Source: a virus. From it: 22,997 bases of DNA. A model generated the notes under the pieces. The model saw nothing but the letters and a program-made list of their open reading frames with translations. It was not told where the DNA came from and did not search any database. Positions 3,063 to 22,409 of this stretch are shown piece after piece. Numbering within the stretch: position 1 is the stretch's first letter; every line of letters starts with the position of its first letter. The stretch lies in the IMG/VR virus record IMGVR_UViG_3300042349_000271, positions 1 to 22,997 of that record. One strand, given 5' to 3'. The translations under genes and the position numbers were made by a program.

Positions 3063-3070
3063 TATTTATG
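3063..3070 (-). promoter_or_regulatory. T4-type late promoter octamer (CATAAATA)
   Basis: The minus strand reads CATAAATA across the TAA stop of the giant gene, 23 bases before the fibre ATG. The predicted start near 3057 leaves a leader of about 17 bases that contains AGGAG. It would let the fibre and protease be made independently of the 15.4-kb gene upstream. Confidence 0.55.
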
Positions 3071-6000: not shown

Positions 6001-9000
6001 TTTAGGGTATAAGTAAATTGACTATCAATATGAGCGATAGTCTCATCAGCAATGAAGTTTCTATTGAACCAGATTAGATCACCAGCATCTCTATAAACAT
6101 TTCCTGTAGGTGCAATCGTGTCATTAATGGAATTCCATAATGTGTCAATCTGAGCACGAACATCAGCACAGTCTCCAAGATCAATTGTGATATCAACTGG
6201 AGGAATTGGGAATCTTTCAGTGTATTCTGGAGTTTCACTCAATTGACCAATTACTGCTTGCTGACAAAGTTCATTCATTTGAGTGTGGGTATAAACACTC
6301 TGGAGGACTTGTCTCTCAATAAATCTTAGACCACCATTACTATCAAGATAGAATCTTGCAGCAGTGATTGACTCATAGTTTCCACCATTTTCAATATCAG
6401 AAATTACAGCTTGTAGTAGTAGTGATAAATCTAATTTACATCTATTTGTTCCTTCGGTAGATGATGCGCTATCTCCAGGTATAACTAGATCTGGATAACG
6501 ATTTTTTAGTCTACCTGCTGCCTCATCGATAATATAAGCAGAATTTAGTCTTAGTAGATTTGCAGCATCTCTAAATCTGTGTTGAGCATCAGAGTAGATT
6601 TGATCAGTAGTAATAATTTTATCAGAAGTATCAATTTGCTTGACAACAAATGGAATAGCGAAATATGTCGATACTTTTGCTGTTATTGAGTTATAAGAAA
6701 TATTCTCTCCGACTATAAAGTTTCCAGTCTTATCTCCAACATAAATTGTTTTTAATGCATAATTGACACCAATAATGTCTGCTGATACTCCACTAATTGA
6801 TCCAAGTATAGTATTTCCTATTTGGAAATTACCTCCACTCAAATCATAATATGTTAGTTTTCTAACCTCAATAGACTCATCTTCACTAAAATCGTCAGTT
6901 TCATTTCTATATTCTACTTTAATATTTTGTACAAATTCTCCTTGTAGTAACTCTGCAGTTGGATTTGTGTAATTTAACAGTGTATTCTGAATTTCCTCAA
7001 AGTCCACAAATGTACTTTCTACCTTGATATCAGAATCATCAATATCAACTACTTCAGCAACACTTCTACTAATATCATCAACAATAGTATTTGGATTTGA
7101 TGGATTTACGATTCTGTTGAATAGTAAACCATAGAATCTACTTGGGTCACTGATGGATACTGAAGATACTGGATCAATCTTAATACTGGTTAAGATCTTA
7201 TGGTTCGCTGTTGAAGTTTGACCAATAATGATCTCATTTGCTACAAAAGTTCCAGAAATTGAACTTAGAATGAGTCTCTTGATTTGTGGATTCCAAAATA
7301 CAACTTCTCCAACTGCAGATGATGTTGATCCAACAACTTCTTCTCCGATTTGGAAATCACCAACGAATGAGTAATCTGAATTGATTACGATGTATACATT
7401 AGGATCTGTGTATGGAGCTAGTGATATAACTTTGGCAACAATTCCAGTTTGTGCTGAAATTATAAAGTCATCAATATCAATGTTTAGTAGTCCAGAAGGA
7501 GAATCATAAGTACCAGAAGTTTTGCTAATGACAATTTTATTTGTTATTACATTTGACTGTGGTTCTAAATTAATTTCTTCTACTACTGCAGTTTGCTTAC
7601 TTAAGTTAGTAAGTTTTTCTTGGAATCTGTATATATTGCTGTTAATAATAGATTCAACAGAGACTATGTTTGCATTTAATCCAGTTGCAGGTGATATTAC
7701 AGTTTCTGTATTTAAGAAGGTTCCCTGAATATTGAATACTGTTAGTGTGGTTGATGTTGAAGAAACAACCGTCGCTGTTGCATTAGATACAAGACCTCTA
7801 ATAGTATTTCCAAGTTCTGGGATAATGCCACTAATATTATTAATTGTTATTAATTTTGTTTCCTCAAACTGAAGTTCAACCTCTGCATAACTAATTTTGG
7901 TTGGTGCAGGAGGTGGCTCACTGAAGATGATATTTCCTTGCTGAACATTAAATGAACTTCCAGGTGCCTGAACAACTCCATTTATGGTAATCATAAATTG
8001 ACTTGTCTGTGCAACAACAATATTTCCATCAATTGTTAGTGGGAAAATTCTTCTTTCTCCATCAAACAGAGTGGAAATATCATCCAATTTCTGAACAACA
8101 GATGTTAGAATTTCCTCAGAAGATGTTAGTCTCTTATTTCTGAACAGAACTTGAGTATTATCAAATTCACTGTAGATTGGTTCTGCTAGAGCAAAGTTAT
8201 CTATGTGAGAAACTACAGAACTCTCAATTAGATTTACACTCTTGACTAACTCAAAGTCTGTTTTATTAGTTAATCCCTTGTTCTCTCCAGTAACTCCAAT
8301 TTCACCAAAAATCTTAAATCCAGCTGGGTGTACATTATCAATTACGATATTTTTCCATTCTTCAATAGAGATAGGACTCTTAATATTATATGAGAACGCT
8401 TGGTATAGGTAAGAGTCTTGAACTCTTTGTACAATTTCACTTGGTTTGCCAACATCATCTAGGAATTTGCCAGTTGTTTTTGTAATAGAATCAACTTCTA
8501 GAATACCTCTAGCAATACTAATATCACCAATAGTACCACTTGCCTTAGAAATTGATCCAGTTACATTTTGACCAATCTCAAAATCACCACTATAGTCAAC
8601 TAATTTGAGTAGTCTTGGACCAATTTGCCATCCATCATTATTTGATACTATTCCAATTGCAGTTGCATTATCGATGTTTAGACCCTGGAATACTGTTTCT
8701 CCAGATAGGAATCTTGCAGTTTCTAGTACAGATTCTGCCTTACCACCGAAGGAATCTGTTAGAATGATCTGTCTTCCAGTACCATTATTAACAAATGAGA
8801 TAAAGTTTCCAGTTTCTGCATCAACTGGTGTTAGTGCAATACGAAGCTGGTCATCTTCTAAACCAGATGTTGTACCAGAAATTGCATAGTAAGTCTGATT
8901 TGGATTGATGAAACCGAATGATGTTAGTGGGAAGTCAGCACCTTCTCCAAGGTCTCTGATATCAAACTTAACCTCAGCACCATTTGGAATTCCATGTGGG

Positions 9001-12000
9001 AATGCAAACTGGAATAACTGTAGGTCAATGTTTACAACATATGTGAAACTAGACTTTAATTCGACAGTTGGTTCTGTTGTATATCCAGATCCAGGATTCT
9101 TAATTACAATAGCATTAATTCTACCATTTCTTAGGATTGCTTCTGCAATTGCACCAGTTCCTCCACCACCAGTAATTACAACTTCTGGAGGTGAAGTATA
9201 TCCAGTACCAGGATCAATCACCTTGATGCTGCTTAATACGCTAGTACTTGTTAACTGTAGATTAACTGGGAATGTGATTTCTGGTCTTAATGTATAGTCA
9301 TGAGTATAATCAAAACCAAAGTTGTTGTTCTTTAGTCTCTTAATTTTACCAACACTACTTCCCTTAACAAAAATAGAAGCACCAGTTCCTCTTGGTGGAA
9401 TTACTACTCGTAACTCAGCACCAGATCCAGTTAGTTGTGGACCAAGAATACCAGGAATTGCATCAATATCAATAAATGCTGTAGTATATCCTTTTCCTGG
9501 ATCAGTTACAATAACTTCAACAATTTGACCTGCAGGATCTGTACTTCCATCTACTGTAATTCTTACTTTTCCTCCAGCTCCATCTCCAGAAATTGGAACT
9601 CCAAAGTATTCCCCTGCTTCATATTCTGTTCCAGGATCTATAATTTCTACTCTTTCAATCTTTCTGGAAGATTCAATATCGGTAATGATAGGTAGTTTTT
9701 TATAGAAACCACCACCATTAATGAGTCTAATAGAACCGATAGAACCTACTGCCTTTTTAGATGTGGTGGTATATGAAGATAATGCTGCAACTGCTGCCTT
9801 CTCTGGCTCAAATTTGATTGGGAAAATCAATTGATTTGCACCAGTTGTAATAGTTGCACCTCCAAGTTCCTTAACCTCAAATGTACCAATATAAGGACTT
9901 GGTAGAACATCAATGTAAGAATTATCTCCAACAGGACTTTCAGATCCAATTCTTGCTGGGTCTGCATAGTAACTGATATTTGATACATCGTCAGTTACCT
10001 TAAATGAAATGAATGGAGAGTTTCCTGGCTCATCTATACCTGGAGTTCCTTTTCTAACAATATTCTTGAAAGTATATTCAATTTTGTTTAGATTATCTCT
10101 GTAGAAAGATAAGAAGTGTCCTAGGTTTGATGGATCAGATGTATCAAAGGTATACTGCTGTCCATAAATTAATCTAATGATAGGATGCTTGACATAAACA
10201 CTAAACGATGTTCCAGATCCAATAACTGAAGATGGTGATGTCTTAATGCTGAAAATAAATTCTTTCTTATTAAGAACACTACTTACATAGTAAGTACCAT
10301 CAGTATTGGAATATTCAGGTGATGATTGTAGAGAAATAATATCTCCAATATTCAAGTAATGTGATGTAGCAGATCTTACAAATAATTGATCAGTATTTGC
10401 TGATGTGTTAATTTGCAATACTTTCTTCAGATTTGTAGTTAATGTAATTTGAGTTACTGCGGTTAGTCCTGAAATAGTTAATTGCTTCTTATCAGAACTA
10501 AATGAGAAGAATGAACTTCCAAGGATATATACAGATCCTCTAGAGTATGAAGATCCAGAAATAACTTCATCAACTCTTACTTGATAATCATCATCCGAAT
10601 AATCCTTAAAGATTGCAGATAATCCTACAGGAATATCAAAGACAAATGTTCCTGGAGTAGTAGCATCTTCATTAGCAAAGATGTATTTTGGTATCTCATT
10701 TACAGCATTATCGGATGTCTCTAATGATCCACTGCTATTGACAAAAGTGCCATTAACAGAAGAAATTAGTATCTGATTATCTTGTGGAATTACATCAATA
10801 ATTTTTGCTGTTGCAATAGAGACATTAGATGAATTCTTTTGAGTAAGAGTCGTTCCTTTTGTAAAATTAAATTCCTGATTCAATGTTAGTCTTCTTACAT
10901 TATCAACTTTAGATGTTGCGAATGTTCTAAAGAAGAATTTATCATACGACTTAGCAGATAGAATTGGTTTTCTTCCTCCAGGGGAAGGAATAGTTGCAGT
11001 TCTAGTTGACCAAGTATCAAGAGTGGATACTATAGTTTGTGTATTTTGATCTAAGAACGATAATACATCAGTAAAGTCTAATACTTGGAATCCTTCATTA
11101 GCTAAGATATAATTAGAAATATTTGTTTCTAATGCAATATTATTAAGTGTATATAATGTTCTGGAAATTTCTAGATTTGCATTTGTGAATTGAATATCAC
11201 CAAGTCTGACTGAATCTGAGTTTTTGTCTAGTTTAATAGAGTATGATTTTGCAGTTCCATGGTCATATGGAGTTAATGCTGCTGATGGAACAGATGATGG
11301 TCCAGAATATGTAATAGAGTAATTACTATATCTAATTTCATCAACTCTCATTGGCCAAGAAGAATATGATGTAGTAGATCCAAACTCAATTGTAGTTGGA
11401 TTCATATCTACACTTTCACTTATGGTTGCAATTTGCGTACCATTCCAAATTAATTTATATGTTGTAATTCCACTAGAGAACTCTTTCTTTAACGCAACAT
11501 GGACCCATCCAGATGTTAAATCTGTAATATAAGTAGATGCAGCAGTAAGTTGTGAAATTGATGCTGCATCATTACTTAATCTAACTTTTCCGTATGTGGA
11601 TGGAGAACTAGTATCTGCAAATACAGCAACTCTTACCCCATTAGTTCCATTGGTGCATCTAATTAATAGTGGAACTTTTGCAGTAGCTGCAGTATCCCAC
11701 TTAATCCATTTTTCTAGAGTCCAGGATGAAGATGCAATACTTGTGGTTATTGACATCTTAGCACTTTGACTCATATTATAAGCATATGTTCCATACTTAG
11801 AGGTTGTTCCAATAGAAACAGTTCCTGAAGTTACAATATTAGAAACTCTACCCAATCTATCTACATAATCAGATCCATCGAATAAGAATTGAGTTCTATT
11901 TGGATAGTATCTTCCAGTTATAGTTGGATCTCCAGATACATCAGACACACATGACACTACATCGTATCCATATGAATAATCTGTTGTTTCAATCTTATTT

Positions 12001-15000
12001 GATTTAATTACATTACCAAGATAGTTGATCTTTGAGATAATTACATATTTCGCATTATTTGCATCTGTTATAGAACATGCAATATTGATCTCTCCAAATA
12101 CATCAATAGATGTTTTTGCTGTCTGTAATGTTTGTGCTTGAGATATAGTATATGAATTTGCCCACTTGATTTCACCATCAGATAGGAGTCTTAGAACAGA
12201 AACTTTATTTTTGGTATTTGATGAGATTGTTCTTTGAGTTGCAGTAATATACAACTCATCATATTCATCAATAATAAGCGTTAGATCCTCGAAGTCACTA
12301 TCAAGTGCCCCATAGGTCTTTGCCCAATCTACGACAATTTTATTAGCAATAATATTTGCTTTTGATATGTAAATGCTTGTAGATGACTTACCTAAGAGAT
12401 ATATTTCATTCTTTGAGTTTACTTTAATCTGGAAGAACTTATCTTCTGTTGAGGGGGAAGTGATCTTTCTTCTAGTTAATGTATCTCCATTAGATGCAAT
12501 GTACATAACTATTGCATCATTAGTGTGATTAGTGTTTGTTGATGTATAACCACAAATTAGAATATTTCCATTATAGATTGTGATGTCTGTAGCATAATCT
12601 CCTCTACTTGCACCACTAATACCACCATATTGCCTTTGCCAATTAATAGTGGATGAAGTTCCAGAAGAATTTTCTGTTAATTTGACAACAATGATATCTG
12701 GGTTAAATGAATTTGATAGTATTGGATTTGGTCTAGTAGTACCAATTATGTAAATTGAGTTACCATCCTTAGCAATACCATTAAATACGCAATTCTTAGT
12801 TTCTTGAGTTGGTTGTACTGATGATAAAGTTCTTTGCCAGATCAAGAATCCTTCAGAGTTGAATTTAGCAACAAATCCATGAGTGTCTCCATTTGTGGTC
12901 TTAATAGATCCAACAATATAAGATTCTTTGGTATCCAGTACACTAGAATTTAATACTGTAATTTCTTGACCAGAAGTTAATGTAATTGTGTAGTAATTTG
13001 ATCTGGTTTGGATTTGTGGATGACTTATCCTAATTCTAGGAGTATCATCGAATGAATTGCCAGAATTGATGATCTTAATATCATTCAGTACACCAGTTGA
13101 TGTAATTGATGGAATAATCTCGGCATCTTTTCCGTTATCCGATTCAATATCAATAGTAATGGGAATATCACTTGAATATCCAATACCAGTTCTTGCAACC
13201 TCGACTTTTTCTAGACCAGGAATAGTGACCATTTTGATGGTCTTACTAACTGGTTCCATTTGAGGTTGTGTGATAACTTCTATTTTATCTCCAACTTCTA
13301 AATTATGTTGAACTTCTGTAGTAATGACACCCTCAAAACTATCAAGTTGTTCATTATAACGATAGTTATAATTTGTGATTTCTTCACCAAGAATCTTAGA
13401 AATTGCAGCAGAAGCACCATATCCATCTGTTCCAGTATTATCGAATACTAGAGTATCTCCAACCTGGTAGTTAACACCAGAGTTTTCAATTAGAAACTCT
13501 GAAATCTTTGCATCCTCAAACTTAGTTGTAGTCTCAACCTCGATATCAACTTTAGATGCAATGTCGATTGTGGGAAAATAATCAAAGATTTCTAACTTAC
13601 TTTCTTCTAATAGTAAACTGAATGTCTCTAATTCCTGTTCAGATAGAACACCATCTTTGTTTAAGTCTTCAATCTCAAAGGATAGGAAGTCTCCACTTTC
13701 GAGTGTGAGGATATTTGTGATTTCATTAGATTGTCTTTCTACATCAATATCAACATTCTCGAATGGATCCCTGTATCTAACAATTCCAGTGGGAATATTA
13801 GACTGAATTGCAAACTGATTTAGGTTCCAATTATCTGGTTGAGAGTAGAAACTTGGACCAACAATATATGGGAATGCTGGAGTTCCATCAGAATTAATAG
13901 TTACAAAGTATGCATAAACACCATCTGGGAATTCTGGAGTTTTAGTGAATCTTCCATTGTATTGATCAAGGAAGATAGACTCACTTCTGAAGACATATTC
14001 ATAGTCATCGATGAAAGTTCCAGCTGAAAAATTCAATAGAGACGGACCATCAATTCTAACTGGGTTAATATTAAGAATTTCATCATAAACTAAGTTAGTC
14101 TTTAATCTATAACCACTTCGTACTTGAGAAATACCACTATTGATATTTGTTGGGTCTGTTAGTCCATATGGACCGTAGATTGGATTTCCATCAAATGCCC
14201 ATCCAATGATTGGTGAGTGAACAAGACCAGAATCTTTCTCAGCAATTTGACCATTCACCACTCTTAGGTTGTCACCTAAAACAAATCTTAACTGAGTTGG
14301 ATTTGAGATGTGTCCATACTCTCCACCAAATTGTTTATTATAACCCTCAAAGATTGAACCATTCGCATAATCAAAATTAGTTGTTCTGTTTAGGTTAAAT
14401 GTCCACTCAAAGATTTCTGCATTAAATTCTGCTCCTTCGCCAATTGACTCTAATCTAATTTGAGTAGTTCCTTGTCTATAACCAACACCTCTGTTAACAA
14501 TAGTAATGCCAGTTACCTTTCCTGCATCTGCACCCTCTGTTGAAATTGTTGCTTTAGCGACAGCACCAAATCCTTCTCCAGTAATAATAACTTTAGGTGC
14601 GGTGGTATAACCAGAACCAGATGCAATTACAGCAACAGATGCTAATCTACCATTATTGACATATGCCTCTGCAGCAGCACCAGAACCACTACTTAGTGTA
14701 ATTGTGGGAGGAATGCTAAAATTATTTCCTGGATCTTCAATAATTACTCTATTGATAGGACCTCTCACAATTGCATTTGCCGTAGCTCCAATGCCACCTC
14801 CACCGACAATATTTACTGTTGGTCTAGATGTGAATCCATTGCCAGGAGTGTTGACTAGAATTCTAGATACGGTTCCATTTGTTATAATAGCAGTAGCAGT
14901 TGCACCATCTCCACCACCTCCAGAAATTGATACTAGTGGGGATGATACATATCCAGATCCTCCAGAAAGAACCTCAATTTCGACTACAGAACCATTTACA

Positions 15001-18000
15001 ATGACTCTAGCATATGCTGGATCACCATTGCCTCTAATGGTCATATTTGGGGGTACTACGGCATCATAGTCCTTTCCCCCATCGACGATGTTGATGCTTG
15101 TTATAGGACCATATGGGAACTTCTGAGTGGACTTATAGTTCCATACACTAACACCATTAACGAATGTTCCTACTGGACCTGGAGTAGATTCTTGCTTTAG
15201 TGAAATAGTGGTTGGTACTTTGGGGAATCTATTTAATTTTCTCTGATTTCCTGGTAATAGTGCAGTTCCTAAGAAAGGTCCAATCTTATAATTGGGGATT
15301 CCACTAGCAGCAACATAAACATAGTTTTCATTGAAGAAACTATTCTGAATATTAGTTGCAAATTTATTGATTGTGTTATTAATTGAGGTAGAATCACTCT
15401 TTCCTTTGTTTAGGTCAATGGAAACAAGTATATTACCCTGAGGATTTAAGTTAGCTGGTTGTGGTAACTGATATGTAAACGATGTTCTAGTTGGAATCGA
15501 TGTTACTAAGAATGAACCATTATACACAATTGGGTTAGCACCATATACAGTAACTTGATCTCCAATTAGAAGACCATGTTGGTTTTGGCATACCACTGTT
15601 GCAGTTTGATTATTTTGACCACCGAAACTAATTTGCTGAACTTGTAATAACTTTTTAACATTATATAACCAACTATCTAATAGTTTATTCTCTTCTGTAG
15701 AACCTAACTTGGAGATGTTTAATTTATCACCTTCCAAATAATATTTACCATCGTCTAGTAGGATTGTTTTATTTGCTTCGACAATGCCCAATACAGATAA
15801 CACAACTTCTTGTGTAGTTCCTTTGTTTACATAAACATAGAAATTTGATGAACAAATTGTTCCAGAATCCCATTCCTGTCGAATTCCAGATAGTTGTCTA
15901 GTACATTCAATAAACTGTGTTAGAGATTTCTCCTTATACCTGATAATCTCAGACCCAACAATAACTTCACCATTTCTTTCTGGCCAACCAATGGTTGAGT
16001 CTACCGTAACGATAACATCATCTAATAATAATTTTTCAGATAATTTAGTCTTGTATGGAATAGTGAATGAACCAATGATGGTTTCTTCTGCAAGAACTAG
16101 TTCATATACATCATAATCTGGTGTCTGAATTGCAATATAATTTTCTATCAGTGCTTGTGCAAATTTAACACTTGGATCAATTTCGTCTTCAAGTTGCTCT
16201 AGTAGACCATTTGTTAGATTGCGAGGATCCCCACTAACTAACTTTGCTCTCATAATGGTGTCTACAGACCATACAGATGCCGATGGCTTAATGATTTGGT
16301 CCTTTGGATATGAGATATCAATAGATACTCCATATAGAACATTGAAGAGATATTTCAATGCAAACTGAGTACCCTTAGATGCATAGAAATCTTTTGCAGT
16401 TCTTAGTACATTAGAGATGTTGACTCCACTTAATGAAATTTTTGGGAATCCTGGTAAATATTGATCAACTAGTCTGTCAATGACTTTAGCAAAAAATACA
16501 GAATCTAAACTCTTAACTAAACTACCACTGATGTGGGTTGCTACTATAGAATTTTTTTCAGATGCAAAAATAGCCTGGTTATCTTCAGTATAACCAATAA
16601 TTCCGCTAACTCCTCTGCTACAACCTACAAATTCTGACTTATTGTAATTTCTTCCATTGTTAATTACTTCAACACCAGTAATTTCTCCTTTACCAATCGT
16701 AGCAGATGCTTTGGCAGAGTCTGGTTCTGAAATATAAACTTTTGGTGGTTGGGAAGAAGAATACCCAGTTCCAAATTCAACGATACTGATATCCGTAATT
16801 TGCCCATTAAAGATTGTAGCAACAGCTTTTGCTCCAGATCCACCAATTGGATTTCCTAAATTGTCTTTTCTATCATCTACGATATACACACTAGGAATAT
16901 TGGAATATCCACTTCCACCAGATAGCAATTCGATAGAAATAACTCTACCAAAACTATCAACCTGAACATCAAGTACCTGAGCACCAGTAGGTTGTACAAC
17001 TTTAACTCTTGGTAAATTTGTTGATGAATATCCTGTTCCTGGATTGAGGATAGATACGGAAACTAATTCTCCACTAGCGTTCAGTACACCTTGTAGAACT
17101 GCCTGAATAGAATTGGGTTCTGATGGTGAATCGATATAGATTTGTGGAGGAGTATTGTATCCAACTCCAGAAGAAATTACATCAACAAAAGTAATTTGAC
17201 CATTATTTGGATTTACAGTTACATCACCAACCTCTGCTCCATATGGATTGATAAACTGAATCCTAGGAACAAAGTCATAACCACTACCACTATTTGTGAT
17301 AGTAATCGACTCTACAGATCCTTCTGCATTTACTGTAGCAAATCCCTTTGGTAGAGTGCCATCAGATCTTTGTGGTGCTTGGAATGACAATAATGGGGGA
17401 TTAGTTTGTGAATATCCAGAACCACCCTGCAATAGAGTCGCTACCTTTACGCCATTGACTAAAGCTTTGGCAGTAGCATTCTCACCATTTCCTTTGGTTA
17501 ATGTTATTTTTGGAGTATTTTCAATTGTGTAATTTTGACCACCATCTTTGATGATTACAGAATCTAATTCGCCATTATCGTTAATAACAGAGTATGCTAC
17601 ACATCCAGATCCAATAGATGGTGATGTATAGTTAATAAACGCTACATACGGAACAATATTACTATTTTCCTTGAGGATTATAGTATCTTGATAGATAGAG
17701 AAATCTTGATAAGGAACTAATAGTTTTTTGTTCTGAATTGCAATTACAAGTATATCTGAAGTTGGAACTACTGGTGCTCCACTATTTCTTAATCTAAATT
17801 TATTACTATCTAATTGTGTAGCAGACGCTACTATGATTTCAGTTGTCTCAAAACCTTTCAAGTATGTGATCGAAATCTCAGACGAATCATCTCCTTCACC
17901 TAAAGCATCGAATTCTCTAGGAGGAACGGTGAATATAATATTATCTTCTAAAATTTGATAATCTACATTAGGAACTTGTAAGTCTCCATATAGTTTAACA

Positions 18001-18491
18001 ATAAGGTGATTTGCACTTACTGGAAATACAGGTTCATTATTTGCAGTAAGATTGAATGATGTTCTTACCCCATTGAATTGTCTAAATGGGTTCGATAAGA
18101 TAATTTGCTTTCTCTGAAATTCGGAATATGAAATTGCAGGAGAAAATGTAATAGATGGAGATTTTCTAACTTCTCTGTAGTAGATTACCTCATCATCTAT
18201 TAATATAGTACCATCGATATCCAAAAATCCATCTGTATTTTCTACCTGAATATTGGCAGTATCTAAGTTGACATCGAAAATAGTTTCAGTAGTACCATCA
18301 AGTTTTGTTAGATCATATGAATCGATGTTCATATAATCTGTTAGATTATTGATGATGTTTAATGGACCACCAATTTTTTCTTGTGATCTATAGTACCCTT
18401 CCATAAATGCCTGGAAGAGTGGATTAGATTCCTGAATAAATTCTGGAATCTGATTAGAAACTGAAAGTGAGACGGATTTATTGTCGTGCAT
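3066..18491 (-). CDS. Giant (5141-residue) mosaic baseplate/fibre structural protein
   Basis: One uninterrupted frame codes for 5141 residues. It begins 25 bases after gp6, where T4 has gp7 (1032 residues) and gp8. The N-terminus (about 1-60) is a short helical region, followed by phage modules of the type D-G-x-I-L-I-D-D-E-V-I-Y-Y (about 80-108, again about 845-890). Residues about 655-755 carry A-K-D-F-Y-A-S-K-G-T and Y-P-K-D-Q-I-I-K-P-S, which I associate with marine phage structural proteins. G-x-G-Y beta-repeat blocks occur near 295-622, 1128-1350, 1664-1824, 2915-3150 and 5056-5109. Between them are a YHYH-like domain (about 1385-1535, W-A-F-D-G-N-P-I-Y-G-P-Y-G), an EF-hand loop (1609-1620), a beta-propeller-like region (about 1830-2200), a LamG-like domain (about 2204-2400) and three Cys-bearing helical repeats (about 3967-4420). 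Four N-G-V-x-Q-x-P-G beta modules also occur (about 164, 3500, 4865, 4950). No enzyme active site or signal peptide is seen. The ribosome binding site is weak. A structural role attached to the baseplate is likely; whether it replaces gp7 is inference. Confidence 0.9.
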   Translation of the reverse strand: MHDNKSVSLSVSNQIPEFIQESNPLFQAFMEGYYRSQEKIGGPLNIINNLTDYMNIDSYDLTKLDGTTETIFDVNLDTANIQVENTDGFLDIDGTILIDDEVIYYREVRKSPSITFSPAISYSEFQRKQIILSNPFRQFNGVRTSFNLTANNEPVFPVSANHLIVKLYGDLQVPNVDYQILEDNIIFTVPPREFDALGEGDDSSEISITYLKGFETTEIIVASATQLDSNKFRLRNSGAPVVPTSDILVIAIQNKKLLVPYQDFSIYQDTIILKENSNIVPYVAFINYTSPSIGSGCVAYSVINDNGELDSVIIKDGGQNYTIENTPKITLTKGNGENATAKALVNGVKVATLLQGGSGYSQTNPPLLSFQAPQRSDGTLPKGFATVNAEGSVESITITNSGSGYDFVPRIQFINPYGAEVGDVTVNPNNGQITFVDVISSGVGYNTPPQIYIDSPSEPNSIQAVLQGVLNASGELVSVSILNPGTGYSSTNLPRVKVVQPTGAQVLDVQVDSFGRVISIELLSGGSGYSNIPSVYIVDDRKDNLGNPIGGSGAKAVATIFNGQITDISIVEFGTGYSSSQPPKVYISEPDSAKASATIGKGEITGVEVINNGRNYNKSEFVGCSRGVSGIIGYTEDNQAIFASEKNSIVATHISGSLVKSLDSVFFAKVIDRLVDQYLPGFPKISLSGVNISNVLRTAKDFYASKGTQFALKYLFNVLYGVSIDISYPKDQIIKPSASVWSVDTIMRAKLVSGDPRNLTNGLLEQLEDEIDPSVKFAQALIENYIAIQTPDYDVYELVLAEETIIGSFTIPYKTKLSEKLLLDDVIVTVDSTIGWPERNGEVIVGSEIIRYKEKSLTQFIECTRQLSGIRQEWDSGTICSSNFYVYVNKGTTQEVVLSVLGIVEANKTILLDDGKYYLEGDKLNISKLGSTEENKLLDSWLYNVKKLLQVQQISFGGQNNQTATVVCQNQHGLLIGDQVTVYGANPIVYNGSFLVTSIPTRTSFTYQLPQPANLNPQGNILVSIDLNKGKSDSTSINNTINKFATNIQNSFFNENYVYVAASGIPNYKIGPFLGTALLPGNQRKLNRFPKVPTTISLKQESTPGPVGTFVNGVSVWNYKSTQKFPYGPITSINIVDGGKDYDAVVPPNMTIRGNGDPAYARVIVNGSVVEIEVLSGGSGYVSSPLVSISGGGGDGATATAIITNGTVSRILVNTPGNGFTSRPTVNIVGGGGIGATANAIVRGPINRVIIEDPGNNFSIPPTITLSSGSGAAAEAYVNNGRLASVAVIASGSGYTTAPKVIITGEGFGAVAKATISTEGADAGKVTGITIVNRGVGYRQGTTQIRLESIGEGAEFNAEIFEWTFNLNRTTNFDYANGSIFEGYNKQFGGEYGHISNPTQLRFVLGDNLRVVNGQIAEKDSGLVHSPIIGWAFDGNPIYGPYGLTDPTNINSGISQVRSGYRLKTNLVYDEILNINPVRIDGPSLLNFSAGTFIDDYEYVFRSESIFLDQYNGRFTKTPEFPDGVYAYFVTINSDGTPAFPYIVGPSFYSQPDNWNLNQFAIQSNIPTGIVRYRDPFENVDIDVERQSNEITNILTLESGDFLSFEIEDLNKDGVLSEQELETFSLLLEESKLEIFDYFPTIDIASKVDIEVETTTKFEDAKISEFLIENSGVNYQVGDTLVFDNTGTDGYGASAAISKILGEEITNYNYRYNEQLDSFEGVITTEVQHNLEVGDKIEVITQPQMEPVSKTIKMVTIPGLEKVEVARTGIGYSSDIPITIDIESDNGKDAEIIPSITSTGVLNDIKIINSGNSFDDTPRIRISHPQIQTRSNYYTITLTSGQEITVLNSSVLDTKESYIVGSIKTTNGDTHGFVAKFNSEGFLIWQRTLSSVQPTQETKNCVFNGIAKDGNSIYIIGTTRPNPILSNSFNPDIIVVKLTENSSGTSSTINWQRQYGGISGASRGDYATDITIYNGNILICGYTSTNTNHTNDAIVMYIASNGDTLTRRKITSPSTEDKFFQIKVNSKNEIYLLGKSSTSIYISKANIIANKIVVDWAKTYGALDSDFEDLTLIIDEYDELYITATQRTISSNTKNKVSVLRLLSDGEIKWANSYTISQAQTLQTAKTSIDVFGEINIACSITDANNAKYVIISKINYLGNVIKSNKIETTDYSYGYDVVSCVSDVSGDPTITGRYYPNRTQFLFDGSDYVDRLGRVSNIVTSGTVSIGTTSKYGTYAYNMSQSAKMSITTSIASSSWTLEKWIKWDTAATAKVPLLIRCTNGTNGVRVAVFADTSSPSTYGKVRLSNDAASISQLTAASTYITDLTSGWVHVALKKEFSSGITTYKLIWNGTQIATISESVDMNPTTIEFGSTTSYSSWPMRVDEIRYSNYSITYSGPSSVPSAALTPYDHGTAKSYSIKLDKNSDSVRLGDIQFTNANLEISRTLYTLNNIALETNISNYILANEGFQVLDFTDVLSFLDQNTQTIVSTLDTWSTRTATIPSPGGRKPILSAKSYDKFFFRTFATSKVDNVRRLTLNQEFNFTKGTTLTQKNSSNVSIATAKIIDVIPQDNQILISSVNGTFVNSSGSLETSDNAVNEIPKYIFANEDATTPGTFVFDIPVGLSAIFKDYSDDDYQVRVDEVISGSSYSRGSVYILGSSFFSFSSDKKQLTISGLTAVTQITLTTNLKKVLQINTSANTDQLFVRSATSHYLNIGDIISLQSSPEYSNTDGTYYVSSVLNKKEFIFSIKTSPSSVIGSGTSFSVYVKHPIIRLIYGQQYTFDTSDPSNLGHFLSFYRDNLNKIEYTFKNIVRKGTPGIDEPGNSPFISFKVTDDVSNISYYADPARIGSESPVGDNSYIDVLPSPYIGTFEVKELGGATITTGANQLIFPIKFEPEKAAVAALSSYTTTSKKAVGSIGSIRLINGGGFYKKLPIITDIESSRKIERVEIIDPGTEYEAGEYFGVPISGDGAGGKVRITVDGSTDPAGQIVEVIVTDPGKGYTTAFIDIDAIPGILGPQLTGSGAELRVVIPPRGTGASIFVKGSSVGKIKRLKNNNFGFDYTHDYTLRPEITFPVNLQLTSTSVLSSIKVIDPGTGYTSPPEVVITGGGGTGAIAEAILRNGRINAIVIKNPGSGYTTEPTVELKSSFTYVVNIDLQLFQFAFPHGIPNGAEVKFDIRDLGEGADFPLTSFGFINPNQTYYAISGTTSGLEDDQLRIALTPVDAETGNFISFVNNGTGRQIILTDSFGGKAESVLETARFLSGETVFQGLNIDNATAIGIVSNNDGWQIGPRLLKLVDYSGDFEIGQNVTGSISKASGTIGDISIARGILEVDSITKTTGKFLDDVGKPSEIVQRVQDSYLYQAFSYNIKSPISIEEWKNIVIDNVHPAGFKIFGEIGVTGENKGLTNKTDFELVKSVNLIESSVVSHIDNFALAEPIYSEFDNTQVLFRNKRLTSSEEILTSVVQKLDDISTLFDGERRIFPLTIDGNIVVAQTSQFMITINGVVQAPGSSFNVQQGNIIFSEPPPAPTKISYAEVELQFEETKLITINNISGIIPELGNTIRGLVSNATATVVSSTSTTLTVFNIQGTFLNTETVISPATGLNANIVSVESIINSNIYRFQEKLTNLSKQTAVVEEINLEPQSNVITNKIVISKTSGTYDSPSGLLNIDIDDFIISAQTGIVAKVISLAPYTDPNVYIVINSDYSFVGDFQIGEEVVGSTSSAVGEVVFWNPQIKRLILSSISGTFVANEIIIGQTSTANHKILTSIKIDPVSSVSISDPSRFYGLLFNRIVNPSNPNTIVDDISRSVAEVVDIDDSDIKVESTFVDFEEIQNTLLNYTNPTAELLQGEFVQNIKVEYRNETDDFSEDESIEVRKLTYYDLSGGNFQIGNTILGSISGVSADIIGVNYALKTIYVGDKTGNFIVGENISYNSITAKVSTYFAIPFVVKQIDTSDKIITTDQIYSDAQHRFRDAANLLRLNSAYIIDEAAGRLKNRYPDLVIPGDSASSTEGTNRCKLDLSLLLQAVISDIENGGNYESITAARFYLDSNGGLRFIERQVLQSVYTHTQMNELCQQAVIGQLSETPEYTERFPIPPVDITIDLGDCADVRAQIDTLWNSINDTIAPTGNVYRDAGDLIWFNRNFIADETIAHIDSQFTYTLNGVQYKAFNYPGGSSATCKRDLVQYILPSIISDLVSGGDVNTINAMKFYVGSDDNIEYIKNELLPTVVAMEKANELCQYAVNNWIVTGTTEYASLYGITTSKYKDLTIILDDGTYGGGCADIKSAIDVLFQKAIDILIPTTQVKRDAAKLIMFNKLYIQNETIQRTLNNYPGFSIPGGNAKCIRDIGYIVDAIVYDLLTDGNSGIYESTVAYIDAATGTVTSLQGELIQSIYAYQQVRDLMKQAVAETLQSPSSAAGFYSYTDSAISITGGNLTSMQSFIDDNMSILLGTLNNSSYIDDNAIVPENSIVIPSIVYPTRDPITPVKGGITEGDYIYGTTSQEYGEISSIIINRADVKTILKRFRVNFAEAVETFDINQELTVLGQPSRICKVYSVYYSETINYIDVAIQSGPFNVNNVLLNEDNFTATIVSIDNRVQLKNVLGSFSTGDYIRAPKSDSESTVSLYERTTSPVLDTSGGKLVLDTESLNDKFHVSNVVYSSTSDIYIDTLGYEGTQVSIGSLVKTTNVYRLTIDLPNEEATTFVVGEKIVNVTDNIPQGKEAVLLKYEQNGGQKYLYISNLLDDDNFEVGETIAYFAGSEQYPSGFASVESVSVQSEIAYGYVERILQIGSNYRLYLSGVKGTFTQYSQLVSNDYRSGIVTVKEVVGRISRSFRGFDGTQTTFKLTSNNGISYFPDSDGYVLVYINGILQPAGVSYNTFSDVIEFLEAPELGATFHGTYVGKLRKLDDISFEFDSLRSSFNLKLNEVFYSLTITDGVQSTNIRPENNIIVSLNGVIQEPGVAFEIVGSRINFAEVPRAGSTFVAYSYIGSDADVIAATVIPPIESGDQLEIESEDRDRTVAIVESSNSLITFDYLGSVFGRNGEALANLIRGRIRTVQLTSGGEGYTSTPVVSLSSPTGFDGQVKAQVGISRVDVIDAGIGYLYPEIEILTEIPDPEETQGSFDSSATTFDLSFITFDAS
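5232..6593 (-). repeat. Three Cys-bearing helical repeats inside the giant protein
   Basis: Residues about 3967-4420 of the giant protein contain three related units of roughly 150 residues. Each has an R-D-A-A/G-x-L-I/L opening, an N-x-x-Y/F-I-x-x-E helix, a C-K-x-D-L or C-I-R-D-I segment leading into a long helix, and an aromatic column ending in E-L-C-Q or a related helix. The first two are followed by a G-D-C-A-D-V or G-G-C-A-D-I linker. The units diverge in sequence but keep the cysteines. The spacing suggests an elongated all-alpha rod between beta-rich parts. Confidence 0.7.
9042..9749 (-). repeat. G-x-G-Y beta-repeat block D of the giant protein
   Basis: Residues about 2915-3150 hold around five units built on V-x-V-I-D-P-G-x-G-Y-T-x-x-P-x-V, separated by glycine-rich turns such as G-G-G-G-T-G-A. 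The last two units, around 9050-9235, are the most regular. The pattern is a short strand, a G-x-G-Y turn and another strand. Confidence 0.75.
14442..15110 (-). repeat. G-x-G-Y beta-repeat block B of the giant protein
   Basis: Residues about 1128-1350 hold around six units of 35-40 residues with G-S-G-Y, G-N-G-F or G-N-N-F turns, P-x-V/I-x-I strands and A-x-A-x-A/V strands. The glycine-rich linkers are nearly identical at DNA level in places, giving a locally repetitive stretch. Confidence 0.75.
16626..17609 (-). repeat. G-x-G-Y beta-repeat block A of the giant protein
   Basis: Residues about 295-622 hold around eight units. Each has a strand of the type L-V-S-V-S-I-L-N-P-G-T-G-Y, a proline-rich turn and a second strand such as P-R-V-K-V. 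Similar units recur at 1128-1350, 1664-1824, 2915-3150 and 5056-5109, and in the separate protein at 1-213. Confidence 0.75.
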
Positions 18492-18504: not shown

Positions 18505-18520
18505 CTAATATATGTATTAG
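18505..18520. repeat. Short inverted repeat at the gp6/giant-gene junction
   Basis: CTAATA, a 4-base loop and TATTAG form a perfect 6-bp stem that spans the gp6 stop codon. The only ribosome-binding-like bases for the giant gene (AGGT) begin at its 3' edge. The stem is AT-rich, so any effect on translation would be modest. Confidence 0.35.
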
Positions 18521-20769
18521 ATGAAGCAGGATCCTGGTCCAGATGGAGTACCAGAAGAGGGTGCTAATAGCGAAGGGGCAAACGATAATAATTTAATCGA
18601 TGGGAAACCAATACTTGTTGGTGATCCAGTGATACCTCCAGTTGGGAATGTTGATACTACTGGAGATCCAGCAGGGACCACTCCAATTGTTGGTGTGATG
18701 AATGACATAACAGCGCCAGGAACGATTGCAGAAGGGGTGATTGATGGAGAGAATGGTGCGACACCTACAGTAATGCTAGTGGGCACTGCAGTCGATCCTG
18801 ATGTGATCTGTGTTGATGTGCCAAATCCAGTTATTGAAGTCGTAGTTCCACCTATTCCAGTAGTTCCTGTAGTTCCTGTGGTAGATGTTCCACCTGCAGA
18901 TCCTCCAGTACCAATGCCTGTTGGAGTTGTATCTCCAGCAACTCCAGTAGTTCCAATAGTGGTTGCAGCAGTTCCTATTGCTGTTGCTGGTTGGAAATCT
19001 GTGGATAGAGATACCTGAGAGAGTTGCTGCAGTAAAGTATCTTCTAAATCGGTTTGACCCTCAAGGTTAACTGGTCCAAAAATAATCTCACCAGTTGCAC
19101 AACTATATGTACCTACATTTCTATCAAGAATGACTTTTTTGTTGTTTGCTAAGGTATATGATCTTAGATTTCCAAAACCATCATCCTCAAAATACTGAGG
19201 TACTCCAGGTCTATCTACAGTATAGTAAACACTACTCTGTATAGTCTTTCCTGGAGTAGTACTGCAACTACAGTTTAATTGAGTGCCAAACTCAACTCTA
19301 AAAGATTTTGGTCCAGTTGCTAATGGATATTCTTCAATTCTATAAAGAGCAATTGAAGAAATAACATCTTCAATATTTTTGTCTGCTTGAAGAATATCTG
19401 TATGTAATTTACTCACAGAGAATGTTTTATTGAAGTTAGAAAGATCTTCATTATCTCCATATTCTTGCAATGCTTGAAGTGCTTTATTCTTTAACTTATC
19501 AGAGGTGCTTTCTGAAAGTGTACCATCACCAAAGTTAGTAACAAAGTTCTTAGTCACAACAAGCATATTGAGATCTACATATATTTCTTTTGGATCTTCA
19601 ATGACAACATCTACAGATGCCATAGCATATGGTCTGAGATTTCTTATAATTTCTTGCTTAGTTAAGTTATTGACCTTTGTTCCTGTTTTGGTTCTAATTG
19701 ATAGAAAGACTTTACCATACACTGGTGGAGTTACCGATTCTCCTCCATATGCATTGACATATCTAGCATTTGGATAAATTACTTTTGTTAGACTTTCGTA
19801 GTCTTTTGCTGTAACTGCTCTATTTTGTGCAGCATAATATTTTGGAGCATTATATTTAATAGATTTTACAGACTCTTGCAAATCACCAATTTGAGACTTT
19901 GCACGGACAGTTAGAGTTATATCATCGACAATTCTATTTTCTGCATCTACTATCTGTCCAGTAAATGAAAACTGTTGTATATTATTCGCTTCAATTCCGT
20001 TAGTTACGACATACTCTAGTACGACTACTTGACCGTCTTCAAGTTTCTTTCCAATTATTCCATCACCGAAAGAAACTCTATATCTTCTATCTTCATCTTC
20101 ACTCAAGAAGAATGATCTTGTAGTAGCATCGATTGATGTGATGTTTTGTACTAGATTGTACTTATCCGATTCTGTGGATTGGATATTTGGTCTTACTGAT
20201 ACCTTTAATAGTTCTGTATCTACTTTTTCATTAGGAATGATATATCTTTGATCAATAGTAGTATCAACAACATATTCATACTTGAGCAAATTACCTTCGT
20301 AAACTGTAATGTCGGTAAAAGTTGCTATTCCAGTTGTTGAATCTACTCTAACTGTTTTGTCTTCAGTAATCACAAAAGAGTAAGACTTACCAGCAGAAAT
20401 TCCACTACAAATATTTCCCTTTTTTAAGGTAACTAGTAGTGGATATGCATTATTCTGTGCAATTTGTGTTTGTACTTCTACTGCAATACATGCCTTAGAT
20501 GCTTTTGCGGATCTAGGTGTATAGTTTAGTAACTTTGCTAGACTAGTTACATTATCTCTTATCGTGGCACTATCTAAGAATAACTCATTTAATGCCATAT
20601 TAGCATTAAATGCAGAGTAATATGTATTGTACGCTAGTACATCAAGGAGATATGATAAAGTAGAACCAGTGAAATCATAGTCCGAGAACTCAGGACGAGT
20701 TCTCATATAAGACTTTATAGATTCCCTAATCTCATCAAAATCAATATTAGTTAAATTTGTTGGTTTCAT
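18517..20769 (-). CDS. 6: Baseplate wedge protein gp6 with a low-complexity C-terminal tail
   Basis: A 750-residue homologue of T4 gp6, which forms the inner ring of the baseplate by joining wedges. The diagnostic N-terminus is clear: a helix with R-P-E-F-S-D-Y-D-F-T-G-S and L-L-D-V-L-A-Y-N-T-Y-Y (residues about 20-55), then L-N-Y-T-P-R-S-A-K-A, which aligns with the D-Y-D-F-E-G-S and L-L-A-Y-N-T motifs of T4 gp6. The middle (about 230-500) has the expected baseplate-J-like beta regions, including R-Y-R-V-S-F-G-D-G-I-I-G-K. T4 gp6 is 660 residues. The extra length is a Gly/Thr/Pro/Ser-rich tail from about residue 587. The start ATG overlaps the gp25 stop by one base (TAATG), with AGGAG just upstream. 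It is co-transcribed with gp25. Confidence 0.93.
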   Translation of the reverse strand: MKPTNLTNIDFDEIRESIKSYMRTRPEFSDYDFTGSTLSYLLDVLAYNTYYSAFNANMALNELFLDSATIRDNVTSLAKLLNYTPRSAKASKACIAVEVQTQIAQNNAYPLLVTLKKGNICSGISAGKSYSFVITEDKTVRVDSTTGIATFTDITVYEGNLLKYEYVVDTTIDQRYIIPNEKVDTELLKVSVRPNIQSTESDKYNLVQNITSIDATTRSFFLSEDEDRRYRVSFGDGIIGKKLEDGQVVVLEYVVTNGIEANNIQQFSFTGQIVDAENRIVDDITLTVRAKSQIGDLQESVKSIKYNAPKYYAAQNRAVTAKDYESLTKVIYPNARYVNAYGGESVTPPVYGKVFLSIRTKTGTKVNNLTKQEIIRNLRPYAMASVDVVIEDPKEIYVDLNMLVVTKNFVTNFGDGTLSESTSDKLKNKALQALQEYGDNEDLSNFNKTFSVSKLHTDILQADKNIEDVISSIALYRIEEYPLATGPKSFRVEFGTQLNCSCSTTPGKTIQSSVYYTVDRPGVPQYFEDDGFGNLRSYTLANNKKVILDRNVGTYSCATGEIIFGPVNLEGQTDLEDTLLQQLSQVSLSTDFQPATAIGTAATTIGTTGVAGDTTPTGIGTGGSAGGTSTTGTTGTTGIGGTTTSITGFGTSTQITSGSTAVPTSITVGVAPFSPSITPSAIVPGAVMSFITPTIGVVPAGSPVVSTFPTGGITGSPTSIGFPSIKLLSFAPSLLAPSSGTPSGPGSCFI
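18520..19011 (-). repeat. Low-complexity Gly/Thr/Pro/Ser tail of gp6
   Basis: Residues about 587-750 of gp6 are dominated by Gly, Thr, Ser, Pro, Ala, Ile and Val, with short near-repeats such as T-T-G-T-T-G-I-G-G-T-T-T and T-G-I-T-G-S-P-T. No charged residues occur for long stretches. The DNA is clearly more GC-rich than its surroundings and has short tandem repeats. The reading frame stays open, and the tail ends G-P-G-S-C-F-I. Confidence 0.8.
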
Positions 20770-21182
20770 TAATCTCCTGGTCTCTGTAGGATGAATGTGC
20801 TATTGATAGTAATAGTGTCACCAACAATTCTATATTCGATATCTACTCTAACTTCAGAGGAATCTGAGTCTTCAGCACTTACAATACAATCTATTATCTC
20901 TACCCTAGGCTCATAATTTCTGATAGTATTTATTATAGTTTCTTGGAGTTGAGCAGCAGAAAATCCATCTAGTGGCTCAAACAGTATTTCATATACTCTA
21001 GATCCAACTTCAGGATCCATTAATTTTTCTCCAAATCGTGTTTGGAGTAAATTTTGCACAGATTGACTTACTGCCTGCTCATTTTTTTGCACCAGAAGAT
21101 CCTTTGTTATTGGATTTTTCTTAAAACCAATATTCAGATCCTTAAATTCTCGAAGAAATCTCTGAAATCTATCTTCTGACAT
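20769..21182 (-). CDS. 25: Baseplate wedge protein gp25
   Basis: A 137-residue protein of the gp25/lysozyme-like baseplate wedge family (T4 gp25 is 132 residues). Visible family features are an N-terminal region with D-L-N-I-G-F-K-K-N-P-I-T-K-D-L, an A-V-S-Q-S-V-Q-N-L-L-x-T-R-x-G-E segment (about 37-54), P-E-V-G-S-R-V-Y-E-I-L-F-E-P (57-70), then the C-terminal strand pair with V-D-I-E-Y-R-I. In T4, gp25 with gp6 and gp53 forms the wedge core that meets the sheath. The stop overlaps the gp6 start. A consensus late promoter lies upstream, and a short hairpin covers AAGAG, its likely ribosome binding site. Confidence 0.93.
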   Translation of the reverse strand: MSEDRFQRFLREFKDLNIGFKKNPITKDLLVQKNEQAVSQSVQNLLQTRFGEKLMDPEVGSRVYEILFEPLDGFSAAQLQETIINTIRNYEPRVEIIDCIVSAEDSDSSEVRVDIEYRIVGDTITINSTFILQRPGD

Positions 21183-21187
21183 TATAA

Positions 21188-21205
21188 ACTCTTTTCTACA
21201 AGAGT
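21188..21205. promoter_or_regulatory. Hairpin covering the gp25 ribosome binding site
   Basis: ACTCTT and AAGAGT form a perfect 6-bp stem with a 6-base loop. In minus-strand RNA the 3' arm contains AAGAG, the likely ribosome binding site of gp25. The 5' arm lies just upstream of the start point predicted for the adjacent late promoter, so only read-through RNA would contain it. Confidence 0.45.
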
Positions 21206-21212
21206 ATTTATA
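21205..21212 (-). promoter_or_regulatory. T4-type late promoter (TATAAATA) for gp25
   Basis: A perfect TATAAATA on the minus strand lies between the 61-residue gene and gp25. It ends 22 bases before the gp25 ATG, with predicted initiation near 21199. It would drive gp25, gp6 and probably the giant gene late in infection. Confidence 0.75.
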
Positions 21213-21215
21213 CGC

Positions 21216-21401
21216 TTAATGCCACCTTTCGACATAATCATCGAACCCATTTTTGCCTCCACATGGTCTTGAATACCTATCTGATGGAGGGTTATTTGGT
21301 TTTTTAGTCTCTATCGATCCATAATCAGTGATCAATTTTGTGGTTCCCCACATTTTTTTCATGTAACTAACATCTCTATCTGGATTTGGGTTAATTGCCA
21401 T
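21216..21401 (-). CDS. Small protein of unknown function (61 residues)
   Basis: I do not recognise this protein. It begins M-A-I-N-P-N-P-D-R-D and has a short helical part with K-K-M-W-G-T-T-K, a proline-rich middle (K-K-P-N-N-P-P-S-D-R) and a C-terminal D-D-Y-V-E-R-W-H. It has one cysteine and no membrane segment or signal peptide. The start is supported by GGAG seven to eight bases before the ATG. It lies between the 71-residue gene (68-base gap with an 8-bp inverted repeat) and the gp25 late promoter. Its place among baseplate genes suggests a small structural or assembly factor, but nothing in the sequence proves it. Confidence 0.75.
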   Translation of the reverse strand: MAINPNPDRDVSYMKKMWGTTKLITDYGSIETKKPNNPPSDRYSRPCGGKNGFDDYVERWH

Positions 21402-21469: not shown

Positions 21470-21685
21470 CTAGTCGAATTTTGGGTTAATATTTCTTCCT
21501 AGAGTGTAATTTTTATCAATTCTTATGTCTGAATTCCTAAAAGTCCAACATTCTCCATTACTATCTAGGAACACGACCCACTCAAGGTCGTGTTCTTGTG
21601 ATCTATCAATCATAAAAAAAGCCCAGCCTTTACCTTTTGGGGTAAAAACTGGGATAGTTGGGTTAAGTTGCAACATATTTTGCAT
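21470..21685 (-). CDS. Small conserved-type protein of unknown function (71 residues)
   Basis: A 71-residue compact protein: L-N-P-T-I-P-V-F-T-P-K-G-K-G-W-A, then E-H-D-L-E-W-V-V-F-L-D, G-E-C-W-T-F-R-N-S-D-I-R and T-L-G-R-N. Alternating strands with several Trp suggest a small beta-barrel or SH3-like fold. I have the impression that this type is common in marine T4-like phages, but I cannot name a function. It starts eight bases after the 47-residue gene without a clear ribosome binding site, so translational coupling is likely. A second ATG three codons on could be used. A 10-bp perfect inverted repeat lies within the coding sequence. Confidence 0.82.
   Translation of the reverse strand: MQNMLQLNPTIPVFTPKGKGWAFFMIDRSQEHDLEWVVFLDSNGECWTFRNSDIRIDKNYTLGRNINPKFD
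21569..21595. repeat. 10-bp perfect inverted repeat inside the 71-residue gene
   Basis: GAACACGACC and GGTCGTGTTC are exact reverse complements around a 7-base loop. They fall within the codons for E-H-D-L-E-W-V-V-F. No T-run follows on either strand. The stem is GC-rich in an AT-rich genome and should form in RNA. Confidence 0.7.
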
Positions 21686-21693
21686 TTTTGAGA

Positions 21694-21837
21694 TTATTTC
21701 CCTTGTCCGCGATACTTTTTGCGGGCAGGATTACGACTTGATGCTGCATATTTGGTCCCAGCACCAGCACCCTGGCGAGATTTTTTAGGAGGACCAGGAA
21801 TATAACCATTTTTATTGAAAGATCCAGGTTTGGCCAT
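21694..21837 (-). CDS. Very small basic protein (47 residues)
   Basis: An open frame from ATG at 21837 to TAA at 21694 gives 47 residues: MAKPGSFNKNGYIPGPPKKS, then a G-A-G-A-G turn and a basic end with N-P-A-R-K-K-Y-R-G-Q-G-K. It is very rich in Lys, Arg, Gly and Pro and probably unstructured, as in a nucleic-acid-binding or capsid/tail decoration peptide. The start has one of the best ribosome binding sites in the window (GAGGTGA, 3 bases, ATG), and a host-type promoter lies directly upstream. Those signals, and the tight fit before the 71-residue gene, support a real gene. I do not recognise the family. Confidence 0.75.
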   Translation of the reverse strand: MAKPGSFNKNGYIPGPPKKSRQGAGAGTKYAASSRNPARKKYRGQGK

Positions 21838-21861: not shown

Positions 21862-21890
21862 ATTGTAGCACAGATTCGCCTATTTGCCAA
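21862..21890 (-). promoter_or_regulatory. Host sigma70-type promoter before the small-gene cassette
   Basis: On the minus strand TTGGCA (21890-21885), a 17-base spacer and TACAAT (21867-21862) form a near-consensus sigma70 promoter. A TG one base before the -10 adds an extended -10 element. The -35 lies inside the end of the PAAR gene. Start near 21855 gives a leader of about 18 bases carrying GAGGTGA. It fits early or middle transcription by unmodified host polymerase. Confidence 0.65.
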
Positions 21891-22401: not shown

Positions 22402-22409
22402 TATTTATA
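22402..22409 (-). promoter_or_regulatory. TATAAATA octamer before the PAAR gene (doubtful promoter)
   Basis: A perfect TATAAATA overlaps the stop of the upstream gene. It ends only 9 bases before the PAAR ATG, against 22-23 bases for the other three. Initiation at the usual distance would leave a leader of about four bases. It may be a chance match in an A/T-only stretch, or it may make a nearly leaderless message. Confidence 0.35.

Follow-up and report, generated by a model that had tools for sequence, protein, structure and literature searches.

The late promoter in front of gp25, a baseplate wedge gene of a T4-like cyanophage, is best explained as a conserved site that restarts transcription of gp25 and gp6 after an early cassette, the small RNA stem overlapping this promoter being either incidental or a weak lineage-specific backup (probability about 0.6). 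The window, that is, the whole 22,997-base virus record analyzed herein, carries on its minus strand the tail region of a T4-like cyanophage, which comprises, in addition to the features listed in Table 1, an ORF with a PAAR motif and a portion of a further baseplate gene. In the proposed mechanism, the early cassette, consisting of a sigma70-type promoter, the 47-aa phrog_516 gene and an intrinsic terminator, would be set before the late operon, and the gp55-type late promoter would restart gp25-gp6 transcription downstream of it, the early silence of gp25 being due mainly to the terminator and the need for gp55. Late RNA should begin at about 21199 with a 17-nt leader, and the stem would form only in read-through RNA, in which it would hide AAGAG and, together with an outer arm, the AUG. 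RNA passing the terminator could originate at either the early promoter or the late box at 22402-22409.

Table 1. Features upstream of and around gp25 and gp6 in the window
Feature	Position	Strand	Remarks
Late (gp55-type) promoter box TATAAATA, 5′ of gp25	21205-21212	-	NATAAATA at the same position in 35/65 distinct gp25 upstream regions
Predicted +1 (G) of late RNA, sixth base past the box	21199	-	Predicted from T4 spacing
5′ arm ACTCTT (-6 to -1; last A of the box plus -5 to -1)	21200-21205	-	
3′ arm AAGAGT, holding the Shine-Dalgarno-like AAGAG	21188-21193	-	
Possible outer arm GGCATTA at the end of the upstream ORF; pairs with TAATGTC (21184-21178) over the AUG, with one G-U	21217-21223	-	Minimum-energy fold of 21150-21232, long RNA
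gp25, baseplate wedge subunit	20769-21182	-	phrog_261, E 3.2e-48
gp6, baseplate wedge subunit	18517-20769	-	phrog_219
61-aa ORF immediately 5′ of gp25	21216-21401	-	phrog_1414, unknown function
71-aa ORF with terminator-like hairpin in its 5′ coding part	21470-21685	-	
Intrinsic-terminator-like hairpin, between sigma70-type promoter and gp25	21622-21653	-	13 pairs, U7 tail
47-aa basic ORF close 3′ of the sigma70-type promoter	21694-21837	-	phrog_516
Sigma70-type promoter TTGGCA-17-TACAAT, extended -10	21862-21890	-	

The named phages closest to the window by gp25 are S-H38 and S-CREM1, with 50-57% amino acid identity, varying with the alignment. Two IMG/VR contigs, L003 and L004, are near-identical to the window (99.94% and 100% over 3,411 bases), and the closest distinct gp25 relatives among the best 80 IMG/VR matches are L035 (68% amino acid identity) and L036 (66%); no gp25 relative between 68% and 100% was found in the phage records or in these 80 matches. 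Elsewhere on the minus strand of the window, one open frame of 5,141 aa (3066-18491) is flanked by baseplate and fibre-connector-like genes, and late boxes at 236-243, 3063-3070 and 22402-22409 lie at gene junctions, each including the stop codon of the upstream gene.

Exact TATAAATA sites occur twice in the 22,997 bases, both on the minus strand and each directly before a gene. The gp25 leader reads 5′-GGCATTAAGCG-TATAAATA-CTCTT-GTAGAAAAGAGTTTATA-ATG on this strand, and the late box is conserved, with NATAAATA lying 14-32 bases 5′ of the gp25 start in 35 of the 65 distinct upstream regions, for which the gp25 starts in IMG/VR loci were picked by a script rule. The same NATAAATA box has been reported 5′ of the late genes of various cyanophages, S-PM2 and Syn9 among them (PMC2984593). 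Being a start-proximal NATAAATA at a conserved position, the gp25 site is an ordinary member of the gp55-dependent cyanophage late promoters, from which we found no difference. The late box of T4 is described as an 8-bp element whose first base is at -13, roughly one helical turn ahead of the start (PMC2988020), and this spacing places +1 at 21199 and leaves the 5′ arm of the stem wholly upstream of +1.

The inverted repeat ACTCTT/AAGAGT, a perfect 6-bp stem, adjoins the late box; the order after the box is CTCTT-GTAGAA-AAGAGT-TTATA-ATG, with the loop GTAGAA at 21199-21194 and the gp25 start at 21182, and the predicted +1 is the first base of the loop. The first-pass annotation had claimed that late RNA would start just past the 5′ arm (21205-21200), and that AAGAG would be hidden in long RNA and freed in RNA from +1; the geometry holds, and the masking is borne out in folding models. 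The modelled unpaired state of AAGAG is 0.89 in RNA from +1 and 0.97 from -2, only 0.02-0.06 when the RNA begins at the box or 5′ of it, and 0.35 from -5; RNA from -5 would already half-form the stem, so that the exact 5′ end matters. For the AUG, the two longest RNAs give values of 0.28 and 0.05, against 0.72 for RNA from +1 and 0.76 for RNA from the box. The predicted energy of the 26-nt hairpin is -5.8 kcal/mol (z -2.54), matched by 5 of 200 shuffles, and the longer contexts are unremarkable (63 nt, z -0.69, 41/200 shuffles; 83 nt, z -0.97, 32/200). The thermodynamic z-score alone, being strong at 26 nt and weak at 63-83 nt, was rejected as proof.

Masking was expressed as the rise in energy for opening the start region that is caused by the 43 bases before +1, in comparison between own and swapped segments. 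By this measure the masking in the window is 5.4 kcal/mol, a level reached by none of 34 swapped gp25 segments, by 1 of 100 unrelated late-promoter segments and by none of 80 in a second draw. The window stem, at its site taken alone, exceeds chance.

The same test was applied to T4, for which the precedent called upon by the first-pass annotation is sound: masking is reported for e, 49 and I-TevI and implicated for segB, with soc also given as sequestered (PMC3014915), and is described or implied for I-TevI, I-TevII and segB, late-box hairpins at homing endonucleases being known from both T4 and Aeh1 (PMC2988022). Among 25 late-box ORFs of T4, the top five by masking were I-TevII, I-TevI, e, 49 and segB, while soc was missed (0.5 kcal/mol) and the 25 ORFs together did not differ from swaps (p=0.35). 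The masking test is informative but incomplete, and the miss of soc means that the absence of a signal in relatives is not proof against a regulatory stem; the odds that we assign to the explanations are unchanged by this miss, being based on the absence of the stem in relatives and on the terminator described below.

The window shares with these five T4 genes a late box overlapping or abutting the 5′ arm, a start masked in long RNA and a late RNA predicted to be devoid of the arm, in silico as far as the masking is concerned, and has its late box directly 5′ of the start. In contrast, the five T4 genes are stronger by the masking measure (10.1-13.0 against 5.4 kcal/mol). Furthermore, the structures of e are predicted in close T4 relatives (PMC3014915), whereas the stem of the window is absent from all 34 other distinct gp25 leaders. 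As to read-through RNA reaching gp25 at early or middle times, a conserved sigma70-type promoter lies upstream, with a terminator-like hairpin in between. Another cyanophage leader, that of psbA in S-PM2d, has a 36-bp inverted repeat in the 5′-UTR together with motifs of the sigma70 and gp55 types, but the role suggested for its hairpin is in stability or light response and not the masking of a ribosome-binding site across a late start (PMC5931967).

The first-pass annotation had named a lack of conservation of the stem among the findings that would speak against its reading, and such a lack was found. The 6-bp stem of the window is present in none of the 34 other distinct gp25 leaders, L035 and L036 included, and is shared by the near-identical L003 and L004; the L035 leader, CATAAATAATTAAAAATAAGAGAATG-ATG, retains AAGAG but not the partner arm. 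When own and swapped gp25 upstream arms were compared over 35 leaders, no matching of arm to start was detected (mean rank 0.50, Wilcoxon p=0.88), the window being an exception with +5.4 kcal/mol and no equal among its 34 swaps. Promoter-proximal perfect stems of at least 6 bp were found in 3 of the 35 leaders including the window, with different letters in each, against 3.9% of within-family swaps, and those at any position in 12/35 against 24% of swaps. Stems noted by eye in L016 (TGATGA/TCATCA), L043 (ACCAGT/ACTGGT) and L035 (GACAT/ATGTC) were rejected as functional turnover, there being no overall excess in the within-family swaps. With unrelated late-gene segments as reference, the gp25 family showed higher masking (2.87 against 1.66 kcal/mol, p=0.02; 7/35 at rank <=0.05), and of the 9 gp25 genes covered by the survey of genomes, window included, 4 were at rank <=0.05 against 0.6 expected; this tendency favours a gating stem, with p values that are uncorrected, sequences that are related and a family chosen because the window belongs to it. 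Its lack of conservation makes it more probable that the stem is incidental, or a weak backup confined to this lineage, than that it is a switch on which gp25 depends.

The upstream sigma70 promoter that the first-pass annotation had pointed out corresponds to a sigma70-type site conserved in relatives. Nineteen loci combine a strong sigma70-type site with the gp25 late box, and in 14 of these the phrog_516-type ORF is preceded by TTGGCA-17 and an extended -10. This ORF was found in 49 loci, and the late box is present in 19 of the 23 with a strong sigma70-type site against 10 of the 26 without (Fisher p 0.003, kinship ignored). Sigma70-like sites in the window are not above shuffles (13 against 22.1), and conservation in relatives is the only reason for which this promoter is credible.

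Between the promoter and gp25, all 19 clade members, window included, carry a hairpin ending at a T-run, 24 to 161 bases past the stop codon of the phrog_516-type ORF, with predicted energies from -10.6 to -22.9 kcal/mol; a hairpin of dG <= -9 plus T-run arose in 27 of 228 shuffles. At <= -10, such hairpins were detected in 19/19 forward sequences, 10/19 reverse complements and 5/19 gp25 coding sequences, the reverse-complement control thus being not clean, and under a stricter scan requiring perfect stems 14 of 21 loci had a terminator-like candidate, in some cases a weak one. That of the window (-19.1 kcal/mol, seven U) lies within the start of the 71-aa ORF, and a near-identical copy is present in L044, L050 and L069. 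The clade hairpins vary widely in sequence and in position, which suggests that the function rather than the sequence is conserved. The first-pass claim that the stem and the sigma70 promoter keep gp25 and gp6 off early is not supported, as it overlooked this strong terminator-like hairpin, owing to which early RNA probably ends before gp25. A terminator of an early cassette before the late operon would explain why gp25 has a late promoter of its own. The analysis shows directly the sequences, their conservation and the modelled folding, and we infer from these the earliness of the small gene, the efficiency of termination and the amount of read-through RNA, as well as the late start site with the help of T4 spacing. 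Besides the terminator-like hairpin, the 71-aa ORF has another strong one (-18.8 kcal/mol, within 21560-21605), so that the ORF could be attenuator-like, and it has one distant relative among the phage records (MW091528.1, 41.5%).

The masking test was then extended to 324 late-box ORFs, drawn from the window and 16 cyanophages, and T4 served as the control. In a smaller survey made before, 74 late-box ORFs had given no trend and did not differ from 200 of 313 control genes (p=0.22). With own and swapped arms of all 324 ORFs, an excess was found in the tail only (overall Wilcoxon p=0.83): masking of at least 8 kcal/mol in 10/324 against 65/9,720 swapped pairs, and of at least 12 kcal/mol in 3/324 against 3/9,720. 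The window ranks 27th, 26 other ORFs reaching its 5.4 kcal/mol, as do 340 of the 9,720 swapped pairs (3.5%). Promoter-proximal stems of at least 6 bp were in excess (22/324 against 9.5 expected), five of the 22 belonging to phrog_773 genes.

Three of the top four ORFs are nucleases: L251:6172 (endonuclease VII-like, 16.7 kcal/mol), L214:12937 (RusA-like, 13.6), L186:4783 (phrog_773, 12.2) and L141:11628 (HNH, 11.8). Other nucleases among the top 18 are HNH genes L227:18169, L253:2245 and L255:7773, PDDEXK gene L215:3911 and SegE gene L132:8416. Nuclease families were at the masking level of the window in 6 of 21 cases against 16 of 297 others (p 0.0015), a contrast for which all late-box members of each family were counted, including six unmasked GIY-YIG-like ORFs, the families were chosen after the hit list had been viewed, two PDDEXK/RusA-like singletons are still counted with the 297, and 6 phrog_773 genes were left out. 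This all-member count replaced an initial contrast (8/16) that had been defined from the hit list itself. The GIY-YIG-like cluster of six was assigned from its motif by eye, and a PF01541 search of the 16 genomes gave no GIY-YIG; Pfam analysis of 85 representatives of the remaining late-box families gave one HNH_5 and one HNH among the 25 of 42 families listed. Without nucleases, the two PDDEXK/RusA-like singletons and phrog_773, 12 of 295 ORFs were at rank <=0.0125 against 7.3 expected, so that a stem like that of the window is, outside these families, due to chance in the majority of cases. At rank <=0.05 the same 295 ORFs gave 27 against 18.2 expected (p 0.028), or 23/286 without gp25. For a masking stem at a gp25-type gene, chance is the somewhat likelier cause. 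Given the three nucleases among the top four ORFs, cyanophages probably do possess the T4-type device, chiefly at genes other than gp25. It is a tentative and rather doubtful proposal that stems straddling late boxes and masking ribosome-binding sites evolved repeatedly in cyanophages, with nucleases (HNH, endonuclease VII-like, RusA-like, SegE) as the main targets, as in T4, and gp25 as a further one subject to sequence turnover, the window stem being one independently arisen gate.

The strongest masking of all 324 ORFs, at the endonuclease VII-like gene of S-SRM01 (L251:6172), is associated with a perfect 17-bp inverted repeat, CATACCTTTTTCATTAC/GTAATGAAAAAGGTATG, that encloses the late box and takes in the start codon, in parallel with T4 gene 49. 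Strong stems also lie across the late boxes of six other nuclease genes, i.e., HNH of S-H38 (L141:11628; 13 bp, ATCTTTGGTATAA/TTATACCAAAGAT), RusA-like of Sf-FR1 (L214:12937), HNH of S-RIM2 (L227:18169), two HNH genes of S-SRM01 (L253:2245 and L255:7773) and SegE of S-CREM1 (L132:8416), and the strong stems at six cyanophage nuclease late boxes resemble those of T4 homing endonucleases. SegE is present in 14 of the 16 genomes, and the other three late-box SegE genes have low masking scores. In the literature searched, which covered few subscription papers, we found no earlier report of late-box stems at cyanophage nuclease genes. In five phrog_773 genes (L186:4783, L244:4540, L235:8073, L195:7465 and L177:2848), the late box runs directly into the 5′ arm of a hairpin that resembles a terminator and lies right before the start codon; the leader has the form ATAAAT-AGAGGG-N8-CCCTCT-T run-A-ATG, with arms identical in five phages and altered in ACG-2014a. 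RNA from upstream might terminate at this hairpin, and late RNA might be free of the arm.

A gate like that of T4 gene e, selected within the lineage, in which read-through early RNA carrying the stem would be blocked at gp25 and late RNA from 21199 would be translated, is in our estimate unlikely. The exact placement of the arm at -6 to -1 with the loop beginning at +1 is in good agreement with it, and so are the modelled difference in AAGAG accessibility, the specificity of masking for the own arm, the ranking of five T4 genes first of 25 by the same test, the excess of promoter-proximal perfect stems in cyanophages, the occurrence of the same arm position at SegE of S-CREM1 and the conserved sigma70-type promoter upstream. 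These points are met by the lack of conservation of the stem and of any own-arm effect across the gp25 family, in which proximal stems of at least 6 bp (3/35) are to be read against 3.9% of swaps, and by the terminator-like hairpin between the early promoter and gp25; in addition, early gp25 is not known to be harmful, which was counted against the gate. An off-switch role of the gp25 stem is possible, and the first-pass interpretation as a whole is partly supported. Pure chance, by which an AT-rich leader beside a late box carries a stem without any function, backup included, falls a little short of even odds and overlaps with the incidental half of the preferred explanation: the 12/295 late-box ORFs at top rank outside the nuclease and phrog_773 groups, the unremarkable 63- and 83-nt contexts and the absence of the stem from relatives agree with it, but the own-arm specificity at the window site and the tendency of the gp25 family do not.

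An effect of the opposite sign, whereby a 30-nt TATAA...TTATA stem-loop in long RNA would join a split ribosome-binding site and enhance gp25 translation, is highly improbable. Through this stem-loop, the distance between AAAGGTGG (21222-21229) and the AUG would shrink from 39 to 9 nt. The same extended stem forms in the predicted fold of the 63-nt RNA that begins at the box, where the AUG is left free; in RNA from the box the AUG is unpaired at 0.76. T4 offers a precedent in the same gene, its gene 25 having a split initiation region in which a hairpin between the upstream Shine-Dalgarno-like sequence and the AUG shortens the distance from 27 to 11 nt and enhances translation (PMC3014915). 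In the window, a similar hairpin is possible, but the Shine-Dalgarno-like sequence is not conserved, the stem also covers the nearer AAGAG, and the AUG is itself paired in RNA begun further upstream. Moreover, AAAGGTGG lies in the codons for a conserved protein end, and its letters vary with an Arg codon in relatives (AAAGATGG, AACGTTGG and AGCGATGG); since it follows the codons of this protein end, help to long RNA by a split site is unlikely. More distant T4-related phages are described as lacking the split site (PMC3014915).

The restart of gp25-gp6 transcription by a conserved late promoter after the early cassette accordingly remains our preferred explanation. If the gate were true, the transcript-length logic of T4 would be extended to a cyanophage baseplate gene. 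A more robust by-product is the own-versus-swapped arm test, which ranked five documented T4 cases first without being told of them and points to the nuclease genes of cyanophages as testable candidates. The gp25 locus itself resembles an early cassette, equipped with its own terminator, ahead of a late structural operon.
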